The notes beneath the pieces were generated by a model. That model ran no database searches. It saw only the letters and a list, made by a program, of their open reading frames with translations, and had not been told where the DNA came from. A DNA stretch of 64,000 nt. Source: Streptomonospora salina. GTDB taxonomy: Bacteria; Actinomycetota; Actinomycetes; Streptosporangiales; Streptosporangiaceae. This document shows positions 55,346 through 59,387 of the stretch, in pieces. Each line of letters begins with the position of its first letter. Positions within the stretch are counted from its first letter, which is position 1. The stretch covers positions 1,891,001 to 1,955,000 of the forward strand of contig NZ_JACHLY010000001.1 of assembly GCF_014204715.1 (NCBI RefSeq). Reading direction: 5' to 3'. A program made the translations under genes and the position numbers.

Positions 55346-55928
55346 CGAGCGCACACCCTTCCTTGATGTCACTTTATGCAGCAATTACCCCACGGAGGGA
55401 CGCCGTCGACTGGGATCGGCGGCCGGCCGCGGTACCCGCTCTTTCGACGGGAGCTGACTCCGACATCATAGACACCGTTCGTACCTGCACGTCCCCTACC
55501 CCGCAGGATGGGTTTAACCGGTTCCGAAAGCCCGTCGCATAAGGGCTTCCGGGTGTGTCGCGGGCGCGGCGGAGCCCCGCGCCCGAGTCGGCCGCAACCG
55601 AATCGCCATTGAAAAGACGGCGCTTCGTGGCCCGGCGCCGCCGAGATTGGATCCGCCCGCGGAGCGGGCATATCGATCGACGCCCCGGGGAGCGAAGGCG
55701 GCGAAGAAGCCCTGGATACCGCCTCGGAGATCTCCCGCAATCCACACATTACCGGGCCCGATACGGCTCTCCCGCCCGGGTCCGCATACGCTTCGAAGGC
55801 GCGCGGGGTTTGTGGGACCGTGGCCCCCGACCGCGCGCGAGTCCGGCGTCGACGGCCGCGAGCCGGCGCAGCTCCCCCGCGTTTGCCTGCACGCGGACGG
55901 TCACTGTGGGCATTGAGAGGACCTCACC
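55346..55928. other. Intergenic region between the small membrane protein and the EndoQ-UvrD gene
   Basis: 583 bp between divergent genes. A perfect 9-bp hairpin (55561-55585) stands in the middle but no transcript obviously ends there. A TATGAT -10-like hexamer faces the small gene near 55465. No coding frame with recognisable similarity was seen; antisense open frames here are extensions of the shadow of the helicase gene. Confidence 0.35.
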
Positions 55929-58900
55929 GTGGAGTTCCACGCAGATCTGCATATTCACTCCAAGTACTCCCGGGCGTGCAGCAAGGATTGCGACCTGGAG
56001 CATCTGGCGTGGTGGGCCGCACGCAAGGGCATCGCAGTCGTCGGCACCGGTGATTTCACTCACCCCGCCTGGCGCGAGCAGCTGCGCACCAAACTCGTGC
56101 CCGCCGAGCCGGGGCTGTTCCGGTTGAGCCCGGATATCGAGGCCGAGGTCCTGCGCACTCTGCCGCCCGCCTGCCGGAATGCCGTGCGCTTCATGCTGTC
56201 CGTAGAGATCTCCACCATCTATAAGCGGGGCGAACGGACCCGAAAGGTGCACCATTTGCTCTACGCCCCCACGATGGAGGCGGCCGAGGCCATCACCGCC
56301 GATTTGGCCCGGATCGGCAATCTCGCCTCGGACGGGCGCCCCATCCTGGGCTTGGATTCGCGCGACCTGCTGGAGATCACCCTCGCCAGCGACCCGGCCA
56401 GCTATCTCGTGCCCGCCCACGTGTGGACCCCGTGGTTCGCCGTTCTCGGTTCCAAATCCGGATTCGACGCCGTCGGCGACTGCTACGCCGACCTGGCCGG
56501 CGACATCTTCGCCGTCGAGACCGGGCTCTCCAGCGACCCGGAGATGAACTGGACGGTGTCGTCGCTCGACGCCTACACCCAGGTCAGCAATTCCGACGCG
56601 CACTCGCCGCCGATGCTCGCCCGCGAGGCCACCCGCTTCGACACCGACCTCGACTACTACGCCGTACGCCGCGCCCTGGAGACCGGCGACGGATTCCGCG
56701 GCACCGTCGAGTTCTTCCCCGAGGAAGGCAAATACCACCTCGACGGCCACCGCAAATGCGGCGTGCGTCTGGAGCCCGACGCCACCCGCGAGCACGGCGG
56801 TCGCTGCCCGGCCTGCGGCAAGCCGCTGACGGTGGGGGTCTCCCACCGCGTCTTCGAACTCGCCGACCGGCCCGTCGGCCACCGCCCCGCCGGCGCCGCC
56901 GGATTCACGAGCCTGGTCCCGCTGCCCGAGATCGTCGGCGAGGTCGCCGGCGTGGGCCCCAAGAGCAAGCGCGTGCGTGGCGAAGTCGACCGCCTCGTGG
57001 GCGAACTGGGCTCCGAACTCGACATCCTGACCGCCGCACCCGCCGACGAGGTCGCCCGGGTCGGCGGCACGCTGCTGGGCGAGGCGGTCACCCGGCTTCG
57101 GGCGGGGGCCGTCGTGCGCGATGCCGGCTACGACGGCGAGTACGGCAGGATCCGCATGTTCGACCCCGGTGAACTGGCCACCGCCGGCTCCGCGCCCGCC
57201 CTGTTCGACGCCGGGGACCTGGCCGGACCGTCGCCGAAATCCCGCCCCGCCCCGACCGGCCCGGCCACCGGGACCGCGCCGGGGCACGGAGTCGCGGACC
57301 CGGACACGGGCGGGACCGCAGGCCGCGCAGCGGGCCCCGGGGACGAGGGCGGAGCCGACACTGCCGCCGCCGACGGCCACGACAGCCACGACAGCCACGA
57401 CAGCCACGACGATATCGGGGACGCGGACGGCCGGGGCGGTTCCCATACGGCGCGCGCCGCCGTCCCGGTTCCCGCCGGAACGGCCGCCGGATCCTCCGGA
57501 ATCGCCGGATCGGCGGTGGCTGCGGGGAGCGGTCCCGGCCCCGCAGCGGCCGGATCCGGAACCGGGGCGGCGGCCGCAGCACCGGCACGCACCCGGTCTC
57601 CCGCGACGCAGGACGCCGGCGCCCCCGCGCTGTTCCCCGACGGCGCCTGTACCGCCGCTGTCCCGGCACGCAGCGTCCTCGACGGGCTGGATCCCCAGCA
57701 GCGGGCCGCGGCCGAGGCGCCCGGCGGGCCGCTGCTGATCGTCGCCGGTCCGGGCACCGGCAAGACCCGCACGCTGACCCGGCGCATCGCCCACCTGGTG
57801 GCCGAACGGGGCGAATCCGCCGAGGGGTTCCTGGCGATCACCTTCACGCGCCGGGCCGCCGATGAGCTGTCCGAGCGGCTGGACGACCTGCTGGGCGAGC
57901 GGGCCCGCGACCTCACCGTCGCCACGTTCCACCGGCTGGGCCTGCTCATACTGCGCGAACAGCACGAGCGCGCCGGCCTTTCGGCCGATTTCGGCATCGC
58001 CGACACCGCCCGGCGGCTGGAGATCGCCGCCGGGGTCGCCGGCTCCGAGAAGGAGGGGCGGCGGCTGCTGGAGCGGCGCGACACCGGCGATGCGGCCGAG
58101 CGGGACGCCGCCTACGAGCAGCGGCTTCGGGAGCTCGACATGGTCGACTTCACCGATCTCCTCGCGCTGCCGGTGCGCCTGCTCGGCGCAGACGCCGACC
58201 TGGCCGCGCACTACCGGCGGCGCTGGCCCCGGATCAGCGTCGACGAGTACCAGGACGTCGACGACCGGCAGTACACACTGCTGCGGCTGCTCACCGCGCC
58301 CGGGGGCGACCTCACCGCCATCGGCGACCCGGACCAGGCCATCTACGGTTTCCGCGGCGCCGACGTGGGCTTCTTCCTGCGCTTCACCGCCGACTTCCCC
58401 GGCGCGGCAACGGTGCGGCTGGGCCGCAACTACCGCTCCAACAGCGCGATCGTCGACGCTGCGGTGCAGGCCATCGCCCCCGCCTCGCTGCTTCCGGGGC
58501 GGGAGTTGCGGGCGGTGGGCGACTTCAGCGACCCGCCGCGCATCGGGGTGCACACGGCCGCCGACGAGAAGGCCGAGGCCTCGTTCGTCGCCCGCTCGAT
58601 CGACCGGCTGCTGGGCGGGACCTCCTGGCACTCGCTGGACAGCGGCCGGGTGACCGGCGACGGCGACGGCGGCCTGTCCTTCAGCGACTTCTGCGTGCTC
58701 TACCGCACCGACGCCCAGAGCGAGGCGGTCATGCGCGCTCTCGACACCGCTGGCGTGCCTTACCAGAAGCGCTCGCACGACCGGCTGCTGTCCCGGCCGG
58801 GCGTGCGGATGGTCGCCGACGAGCTGTCCCGCCACGCCACGGGCACACCGGTCGAGCGGGTCCGTTCGGCGGTGGCGCTGCTGTGCGAGCGCCACTCCGG

Positions 58901-59387
58901 TGACGATGAGCTGTGCGCGCACCTGCGCACGGCCGGAGAGCTGGTGCGGCCGCTGGCCGCCGAGTGCGGCGACGACCCGTCCGAGCTCCTGTCGGCGCTG
59001 GCGATGGGCGCCGAGGTCGATGCGCTCGACCCGCGCGCCGACCGGGTGGCGCTGCTGACGCTGCACGCCGCCAAAGGGCTGGAGTTTCCGGTGGTGTTCC
59101 TGGTGGGCTGCGACGACGGGCTGCTGCCGTTCCGGTTTCCGGGCGAGGGGCGCGGCCCTGAGGGCTCCGGCGAGGCGGAAGAGCGGCGGCTGTTCTTCGT
59201 CGGGATCACCCGCGCCCAGCAGCGGCTCTACCTTTCGCGGGCGCGGCGGCGCACGCGGCGCGGCACGGCTGCGGACACCGCGCCGTCGCCGTTTTTGAAA
59301 GCCGTCGACACCGCTCTGACGATGCCCGTGGACGAGGAGTCGGCCGTGCGCAAACGCCCGCGCGACCGGCAGATGCGACTGCTGTGA
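55929..59387 (+). CDS. Fusion of EndoQ-like PHP endonuclease with UvrD/PcrA-type SF1 helicase
   Basis: 1152 aa. Residues 1 to ~430 are an Endonuclease Q (TIGR00375) module: PHP metal motifs (FHADLHIHSKYS, GTGDFTHP, KVHHLLYAP, VSNSDAHSP), a Zn-binding segment with Cys277/293/296, and a helix-hairpin-helix-like end. Residues ~430-580 are a Gly/Ala/Pro-rich linker with HDS repeats. Residues ~585-1140 are a UvrD-family helicase: DPQQ Q-motif, Walker A GPGTGKT (607-613), DEYQD (772-776), GDPDQAIYGFRGAD, GRNYRSN, TLHAAKGLEF and the GITRAQQRLYLSRARRR motif VI. EndoQ nicks 5' to deaminated bases; the fused helicase suggests unwinding from that nick. GTG start with GAGAGGA upstream. Confidence 0.93.
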   Translation: MEFHADLHIHSKYSRACSKDCDLEHLAWWAARKGIAVVGTGDFTHPAWREQLRTKLVPAEPGLFRLSPDIEAEVLRTLPPACRNAVRFMLSVEISTIYKRGERTRKVHHLLYAPTMEAAEAITADLARIGNLASDGRPILGLDSRDLLEITLASDPASYLVPAHVWTPWFAVLGSKSGFDAVGDCYADLAGDIFAVETGLSSDPEMNWTVSSLDAYTQVSNSDAHSPPMLAREATRFDTDLDYYAVRRALETGDGFRGTVEFFPEEGKYHLDGHRKCGVRLEPDATREHGGRCPACGKPLTVGVSHRVFELADRPVGHRPAGAAGFTSLVPLPEIVGEVAGVGPKSKRVRGEVDRLVGELGSELDILTAAPADEVARVGGTLLGEAVTRLRAGAVVRDAGYDGEYGRIRMFDPGELATAGSAPALFDAGDLAGPSPKSRPAPTGPATGTAPGHGVADPDTGGTAGRAAGPGDEGGADTAAADGHDSHDSHDSHDDIGDADGRGGSHTARAAVPVPAGTAAGSSGIAGSAVAAGSGPGPAAAGSGTGAAAAAPARTRSPATQDAGAPALFPDGACTAAVPARSVLDGLDPQQRAAAEAPGGPLLIVAGPGTGKTRTLTRRIAHLVAERGESAEGFLAITFTRRAADELSERLDDLLGERARDLTVATFHRLGLLILREQHERAGLSADFGIADTARRLEIAAGVAGSEKEGRRLLERRDTGDAAERDAAYEQRLRELDMVDFTDLLALPVRLLGADADLAAHYRRRWPRISVDEYQDVDDRQYTLLRLLTAPGGDLTAIGDPDQAIYGFRGADVGFFLRFTADFPGAATVRLGRNYRSNSAIVDAAVQAIAPASLLPGRELRAVGDFSDPPRIGVHTAADEKAEASFVARSIDRLLGGTSWHSLDSGRVTGDGDGGLSFSDFCVLYRTDAQSEAVMRALDTAGVPYQKRSHDRLLSRPGVRMVADELSRHATGTPVERVRSAVALLCERHSGDDELCAHLRTAGELVRPLAAECGDDPSELLSALAMGAEVDALDPRADRVALLTLHAAKGLEFPVVFLVGCDDGLLPFRFPGEGRGPEGSGEAEERRLFFVGITRAQQRLYLSRARRRTRRGTAADTAPSPFLKAVDTALTMPVDEESAVRKRPRDRQMRLL
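57375..57410. repeat. 9-bp tandem repeat in the EndoQ-UvrD linker
   Basis: GACAGCCAC is repeated three times plus flanking half-units, encoding His-Asp-Ser repeats in the domain linker. Confidence 0.8.

Follow-up and report, generated by a model that had tools for sequence, protein, structure and literature searches.

What follows a cut by Endonuclease Q (EndoQ) has, in the articles consulted, only been proposed, as strand displacement completed by a flap nuclease and a ligase (PMC4357722, available sections), and the locus analysed here encodes an EndoQ-like nuclease that shares a polypeptide with a helicase. The gene lies at positions 55,929 to 59,387 of a 64,000-nucleotide stretch of the Streptomonospora salina genome (NCBI RefSeq assembly GCF_014204715.1, contig NZ_JACHLY010000001.1, positions 1,891,001 to 1,955,000), which we refer to as the window. 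A preliminary description, made from the letters and open reading frames, had proposed that an EndoQ-like N-terminal half and a UvrD/PcrA-type C-terminal half together form a compact excision machine. The interpretation that we favour, with a probability of roughly 0.6, is that the fusion is a single-polypeptide, clamp-docked excision enzyme that would nick 5' of a deaminated or abasic lesion and unwind the DNA from that nick; the clamp-type motifs are an addition of the present analysis and were absent from the preliminary description.

Two complete halves in one reading frame

The 1152-codon frame contains no stop and consists of an EndoQ half, a disordered linker and a UvrD/PcrA-type helicase half:

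55929..59387, forward strand: whole coding sequence including the stop codon, 1152 residues, GTG start (from the open-frame list)
55929..57188, forward strand: EndoQ half, residues 1-420
57189..57665, forward strand: low-complexity linker, residues 421-579, fast-changing
57666..59348, forward strand: UvrD/PcrA-type helicase half, residues 580-1140 (profile, sequence and structure matches)

The alignment with PfuEndoQ (5zb8; E 8.2e-48) runs end to end over residues 4-410, and in an AlphaFold2 model of the protein this half superposes on PfuEndoQ 5zb8_B with a Z score of 42.9 and a deviation of 2.9 Å over 384 residues at about 30% identity. The model was built from 44 aligned fusions (the window and 43 of 73 loci, with pairwise identity below 80%, frames longer than 1260 residues and the locus L007 being left out), and structures were compared by Foldseek search followed by superposition Z scores. 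Both halves are modelled confidently; the linker has a predicted local distance difference test score (pLDDT) below 50, and residues 1139-1143 and 1145-1152 are of low confidence. Conservation was assessed in a 102-row alignment that comprises the window, 73 fusions of a first locus set and 28 held-out fusions, both sets being defined below. The residues predicted to form the active site, with roles taken from the available text of PMC8307549, are intact:

55944..55961, forward strand: PHP motif D6-L-H8-I-H10-S (D6, H8 and H10 in 101/102 rows)
56205..56207, forward strand: E93, equivalent of PfuEndoQ E76 by alignment, predicted metal ligand (102/102; PMC8307549)
56250..56252, forward strand: H108, equivalent of PfuEndoQ H84 by alignment, predicted metal ligand (102/102; PMC8307549)
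56418..56420, forward strand: H164, equivalent of PfuEndoQ H139 by alignment, predicted metal ligand and pocket residue (102/102; PMC8307549)
56523..56531, forward strand: G199-L-S201, equivalents of PfuEndoQ G169 and S171, predicted base pocket (G199 and S201 in 102/102; PMC8307549)
56592..56603, forward strand: SDAH motif S222-D223-A224-H225 (D223 and H225 in 102/102)
56748..56816, forward strand: zinc segment H274-x2-C277 ... C293-x2-C296 (102/102; alignment with PfuEndoQ)

The single row lacking D6, H8 and H10 is gapped there and starts inside the gene. G169 and S171 of PfuEndoQ help to keep out normal T and A (PMC8307549, available text), and their counterparts are invariant, as are all four predicted zinc ligands, the first of which (H274) is a histidine in place of the first zinc cysteine of PfuEndoQ. 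The NCBIfam profile TIGR00375 (a hypoth_equivalog model) scores 150.7 bits against a curated cut-off of 326.6, which is not reached, and by homology this half is assigned to the wider EndoQ superfamily only and not to TIGR00375 itself. A Pfam profile search of the protein reported no PHP or EndoQ domain. With neither listed by Pfam and TIGR00375 under its cut-off, generic profiles see mainly the helicase.

With respect to the helicase half, residues 577-1127 align in three stretches with UvrD1, PcrA, UvrD and Rep; PF00580 (213.2 bits, gathering threshold 23) and PF13361 (112.5 bits, gathering threshold 25.6) are both passed, and on these grounds the half is placed in the UvrD/REP SF1A superfamily with motifs I-VI. 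In the model it superposes on Deinococcus UvrD with a Z score of 35.5 and 3.1 Å over 532 residues. The principal motifs are as follows:

57744..57767, forward strand: Walker A, A606-GPGTGK-T613 (G611, K612 and T613 in 102/102)
58242..58256, forward strand: Walker B or motif II, D772-E-Y-Q-D776 (D772, E773, Q775 and D776 in 102/102)
59064..59084, forward strand: motif V region, H1046-AAKGL-E1052 (H1046, K1049, G1050 and E1052 in 102/102)

Altogether, 20 of 21 checked helicase residues are invariant, the remaining one, T1044, being Ser in 3 rows. The equivalog cut-offs are not reached (PcrA, 350.7 vs 911.2; UvrD, 286.7 vs 1144.45; Rep, 301.1 vs 951.45) and, given the sub-threshold TIGR00375 and PcrA scores, both halves are best regarded as diverged members of their superfamilies. 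A shortened 2B subdomain was considered as a special feature of the fusion and dropped: the crude inter-motif distance that spans this region is 107-194 residues in the measurable fusions and 233 in UvrD1 of the same genome, and it is also short (130) in UvrD2. At least five further UvrD-family genes are present in the Streptomonospora salina genome, in which a profile search gave a single TIGR00375 match. Two UvrD-family frames of the same genome, L154 (637 residues) and L155 (704 residues), match the helicase half only from residues 157 and 247, respectively, and thus bear an extra N-terminal part of no assigned family.

A gene-calling artefact is ruled out by the unbroken frame, by the presence of the fusion in one frame at other loci and by codon-position G+C, whose coding pattern extends over both halves and is less marked in the low-complexity linker. 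The occurrence of the fusion in Actinomycetota, Planctomycetota, Binatota, a deltaproteobacterial group and other lineages leads to the same conclusion. An antisense open frame of 1105 residues (55749-59066, reverse strand) runs opposite the whole gene; its most likely origin is the G+C-rich third positions of the sense frame. The preliminary description had thus correctly recognised the PHP motifs and zinc segment of the first half, the SF1A motifs of the second, the extent of each and their union in one polypeptide. The domain search that it suggested recovers the EndoQ superfamily and the UvrD profiles, with TIGR00375 below cut-off; two of its misgivings, loss of the PHP metal ligands and an internal stop near codon 580, are dispelled by the alignment, where the ligands are kept, and by the frame, which has neither a stop nor a frame change there.

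Clamp-type motifs at the C-terminus and behind the EndoQ half

Two short motifs outside the folded halves resemble the docking signals of sliding-clamp partners:

59370..59384, forward strand: candidate beta-clamp-type motif Q1148-M-R-L-L1152 at the C-terminus, family consensus QLRLL (72/74 rows; 27/28 held-out rows)
57195..57209, forward strand: post-EndoQ motif P-A-L-F-D (residues 423-427), a putative eroded clamp-type motif where archaeal EndoQ has its PIP box (alignment)

The tails of the fusions mostly end in QL[RSKDT]L[LFMI]. In the first set, which consists of the window and those 73 of 125 fetched loci that have a forward-strand match and a complete frame of more than 800 residues, the pattern Q..[LFM][hydrophobic] falls within the last eight residues in 72 of 74 fusions, compared with a mean of 0.8 and a maximum of 6 when the last 30 residues were shuffled 2000 times. 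The two exceptions are L007, with an unrelated tail, and L065, in which QLSLL is followed by 12 more residues. A held-out set was fetched later as a test (33 loci, from which the duplicates L193, L198 and L205 and the contig-end cuts L189 and L199 were removed, leaving 28); here the motif is found in 27 of 28 (shuffles 0.37, maximum 4), the sole exception, L186, carrying QLSLF and then five residues. All 10 complete Planctomycetota fusions have the motif within the last 14 residues; these are the complete helicase-bearing frames, a very diverged one (L243) included, among 33 loci of which L232 and L233 are cut and L244 lacks a helicase match. The shuffles for this and the post-EndoQ motif ignore the kinship of the rows, and their outcomes are not to be taken as probabilities.

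Outside Actinomycetota, many tails read QLSLF, QLKLF, QLDLF or QLNLF, and others QETLF or QPQLF. As the consensus of beta-clamp partners is QL(S/D)LF (PMC9690074, available text), the former are, as sequences, at or near that consensus. The C-terminal motif accordingly has the pattern of a beta-sliding-clamp client, to which clamp binding may be ascribed. The amino acids of the 22-residue tail are identical in the window and Streptomonospora alba (L002), with four differences at third codon positions; in the linker, 58 of 131 compared residues differ between the two. A clamp-type tail is absent, as judged by eye, from five other UvrD-family proteins of the Streptomonospora salina genome. Some standalone EndoQs carry one, such as QPRLF in L076, and of about 26 Planctomycetota standalone frames 20 were fetched; with the cut L219 not counted, the motif is found in 5 of the 10 closer proteins (46-61% identity) and in none of the 9 more distant.

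Behind the EndoQ half, 13 of the 19 non-actinobacterial rows have an intact Q..[LMF]F (shuffles 0.5, maximum 4); a single phylum contributes 12 of these 19 rows, and L022 and L028 nearly duplicate each other. These two, labelled Gemmatimonadetes and Candidatus Latescibacterota, have near-identical EndoQ halves, and one label may be wrong. In Actinomycetota only 2 of 83 rows have the glutamine, whereas 82 retain the [LMF]F pair (shuffles 7.8, maximum 17); judging by this alignment, the motif is worn down to xLF within the phylum. Four of the 10 complete Planctomycetota fusions retain it.

In archaea, EndoQ has a C-terminal PIP box with which it binds PCNA, and PCNA stimulates the enzyme; for TkoEndoQ the dissociation constant (KD) is 55 nM and the PIP box is required for the stimulation (PMC4858679, available text). 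Ishino and colleagues have pointed out beta-clamp consensus sequences towards the C-terminus of bacterial EndoQs (same source). What is new is that the fusion bears a predicted clamp motif on the distal side of the helicase.

Distribution, history and genomic setting

Both halves share one frame in 119 of the 125 fetched loci. This set leans to fusions, in that 80 of its loci are the best whole-protein matches (77 fused in one frame) kept from a genome contig scan with at least 543 relatives, some of which may be helicase matches only, and it holds duplicates (e.g., the window as L001 and L087). The six others comprise L069, L078 and L104, split by a stop or frame change, the standalone EndoQ L076, L082, which is cut by a contig end, and L085, which has neither half. 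L078 (Streptomyces specialis) has one in-frame stop between the halves, and L069, L104 and also L135 have frame changes; decay, true fission or sequencing error may account for these splits.

In the class, the EndoQ half has matches in 47 of 296 genomes, with 35 frames of at least 1000 residues, 2 broken frames (G353, G390), 8 standalone frames of 455-560 residues (one with a stop) and 2 weak fragments; in a set of 60 relatives, 28 match. Across the phylum, the TIGR00375 profile matched in only 5 of 198 genomes and never above its cut-off. In the phylum of L018 (labelled Deltaproteobacteria), 15 of 40 genomes match (14 frames of at least 900 residues and 1 with an internal stop). In Planctomycetota, the phylum of L013, 43 of 392 do, and these divide into 14 frames of at least 900 residues (two by partial matches), about 26 standalone frames and 3 fragments; on reading, the helicase half was found in 13 of the 14 long frames. 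The fusion is real, old and common to several bacterial phyla. The survey of fused and separate forms that the preliminary description had called for thus finds both, and its impression that the fused form is little studied agrees with the literature: a search of open-licence articles yielded no description of an EndoQ-helicase fusion, and none is mentioned in the available portions of PMC11354406, PMC6202378, PMC4357722, PMC8307549 and PMC4858679.

In a tree of the helicase halves, those of 41 fusions group as one branch next to UvrD1 of this genome (support 82). In an EndoQ tree that includes actinobacterial standalones (61 rows; fused rows at least 90% identical and L135-L137 left out), standalones nest among fused forms in two places, and in a wider EndoQ tree (67 rows; L190, L219, L232 and L233 left out) the fused and standalone labels need six changes. 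This nesting suggests repeated loss of the helicase, and one old fusion followed by several such losses would be the simplest history. All three are quick tree searches, and PfuEndoQ and L243 form long branches in the 67-row tree, L243 also in the helicase tree, so that neither the root nor the direction of every change is certain. L243 (genome G565) is a very diverged fusion with about 30% EndoQ and 26% helicase identity, the tail QLQLF and an unsure place in the two trees that include it. No helicase half of the fusion type was found near ten actinobacterial standalone EndoQs, for each of which 13-14 kb of surrounding sequence was covered.

On one side, the gene is flanked by radA-, mutY- and clpC-like genes (assigned from domains and sequence) and lsr2, and on the other by what look like genes for a GNAT protein, lysyl-tRNA synthetase and type III pantothenate kinase. 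This order is shared by only part of the loci, and the position is conserved in near relatives. No operon partner recurs across clades: of 80 loci, some of them too short to show these neighbours, 19 have lsr2 nearby and 12 have lysS. The Gabija arrangement of GajA beside GajB was not found, the 25 of 48 PADLOC matches listed being to the helicase half only and the seven checked neighbours being of housekeeping type. A plasmid search with the EndoQ half gave no match and viral contigs gave no confirmed match; in a phage collection 139 records match, none covering 80% of the query at one place, and the 20 of 139 listed match the helicase half only. Two of the phage-collection records, H3 and H4 (Salmonella enterica strains, 98 and 582 kb), contain DNA helicase II and resemble bacterial contigs. 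A mobile-element or defence setting is thus unsupported by plasmids, viral contigs, neighbours or cross-clade partners.

As for other repair genes, the UDG family (PF03167) is matched in all 296 genomes of the class, Streptomonospora salina included, which rules out the fusion as a substitute for UDG. EndoV is present in 79 of the 296, again including Streptomonospora salina, and in 25 of the 35 genomes with an EndoQ frame of at least 1000 residues (two of the 25, G414 and G284, being weak); there is no sign in this co-occurrence that the fusion substitutes for EndoV. Since the genome has both enzymes, the fusion would be an extra repair route and not the sole one.

Proposed function, alternatives and known systems

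We propose that the EndoQ half acts on uracil, hypoxanthine, xanthine or an abasic site by flipping the lesion out and incising the backbone on its 5' side, which would produce a 3'-OH and a lesion-bearing 5' end. UvrD-type motors move 3' to 5'; the helicase half, tethered by a flexible linker of about 160 residues, would load on the intact strand at the nick, move in this direction and peel away the lesion-bearing strand, whereas a helicase loaded on the other strand would instead unwind the primer. A polymerase could then extend the freed 3'-OH, and other enzymes would trim and seal the flap. An EndoQ cut indeed leaves a 3'-OH and, on the lesion side, a 5'-phosphate (PMC4357722, available text). 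The post-EndoQ and extreme C-terminal motifs would anchor the enzyme to the beta sliding clamp, in the manner of the archaeal PIP box on PCNA, and put it at the polymerase's place of work. Consistent with this proposal are the completeness of both halves, the conserved catalytic residues, the multi-phylum fusion, the single helicase branch and the conserved tail.

Several points weigh against it. The TIGR00375 and PcrA scores fall below their cut-offs, and the substrates may differ from those of known EndoQs; nicking, unwinding and clamp binding are all predicted from homology. The tail of the window, QMRLL, is a weak form in comparison with QL(S/D)LF, and its post-EndoQ motif has no glutamine. 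The full-length model has a predicted template modelling score (pTM) of 0.56, which gives no reliable placement of the halves, and their relative position is for this reason not interpreted. Furthermore, the helicase was apparently lost and EndoQ kept in several lineages, so that the coupling appears to be dispensable there.

A more specific version, in which the two clamp motifs, one after the nuclease and one after the motor, fill the two pockets of the dimeric beta ring, so that lesion cutting and strand displacement pass directly to the polymerase, is possible and considerably more tentative. If it is true, cells with the fusion would have an excision route without a glycosylase or a separate helicase, and these bacteria would use a beta-clamp-type docking signal where archaea use PCNA, with a motor added.

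Among the alternatives, the order of steps might be reversed, with the motor opening or scanning DNA, for example at forks, and presenting single-stranded or distorted lesions that the EndoQ half cuts afterwards. PfuEndoQ does cut uracil and hypoxanthine in single-stranded DNA (PMC11354406, available text), and the clamp-type motifs would site the enzyme at forks; however, archaeal EndoQ acts on duplex lesions without a helicase (PMC4357722, available text) and no observation here favours the helicase-then-cut order, which we consider unlikely. That the two activities are merely tethered on one clamp-docked protein, and act at different times on different substrates, would accord with the several losses of the helicase and with the long, fast-changing linker. 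The persistence of the one-frame fusion across phyla and the single helicase branch speak against such independence, if weakly, as EndoQ-less helicases of this branch were not sought, and we take it to be rather improbable. Drift of the EndoQ half toward other lesions or structures, making the protein a nuclease-helicase for a different repair task, could be read from the 150.7-bit TIGR00375 score and the limited identity to PfuEndoQ, but the invariance of the metal ligands and of G199 and S201 in all 102 rows makes this distinctly improbable. A defence role against phages or plasmids whose DNA is modified or rich in uracil, suggested by matches of the helicase half to GajB models (PADLOC) and by the antiviral roles proposed for bacterial EndoQ (PMC8307549, available text), is very improbable given the housekeeping neighbours, the conserved position in near relatives and the lack of both a partner common to clades and a plasmid match.

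The clamp-docked excision enzyme that we favour would give a concrete answer to the question of what follows an EndoQ cut: a natural EndoQ with its own motor and clamp-type tail, testable with one protein. Moreover, EndoQ has been described as confined to a few groups of bacteria, yet several bacterial lineages have it frequently.

The fusion can be compared with several known systems. Gabija likewise pairs a nuclease (GajA) with a UvrD-like helicase (GajB), but its components are encoded by separate genes and the nuclease is of another kind, whereas the fusion is one chromosomal gene with no defence setting. The likeness to UvrD, PcrA and UvrD1 extends over the SF1A fold (532 residues) and motifs I-VI; in contrast to these helicases, the fusion bears a predicted lesion nuclease and a clamp-type tail, and its equivalog scores are sub-threshold. 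EndoMS/NucS of Actinobacteria is also a repair endonuclease with a C-terminal beta-clamp motif, and is stimulated by the clamp (PMC8228993, available text), yet it is a RecB-like mismatch nuclease that makes double-strand breaks and has no helicase. The closest counterparts are the Endonuclease Q enzymes themselves (PfuEndoQ, TkoEndoQ and Bacillus pumilus EndoQ), with which the fusion shares the fold over 384 residues, the PHP ligands, the pocket, the zinc segment and a clamp-type motif behind the EndoQ domain; these are standalone proteins, to which the fusion adds a helicase and a C-terminal motif behind it, along with the replacement of one zinc cysteine by histidine.

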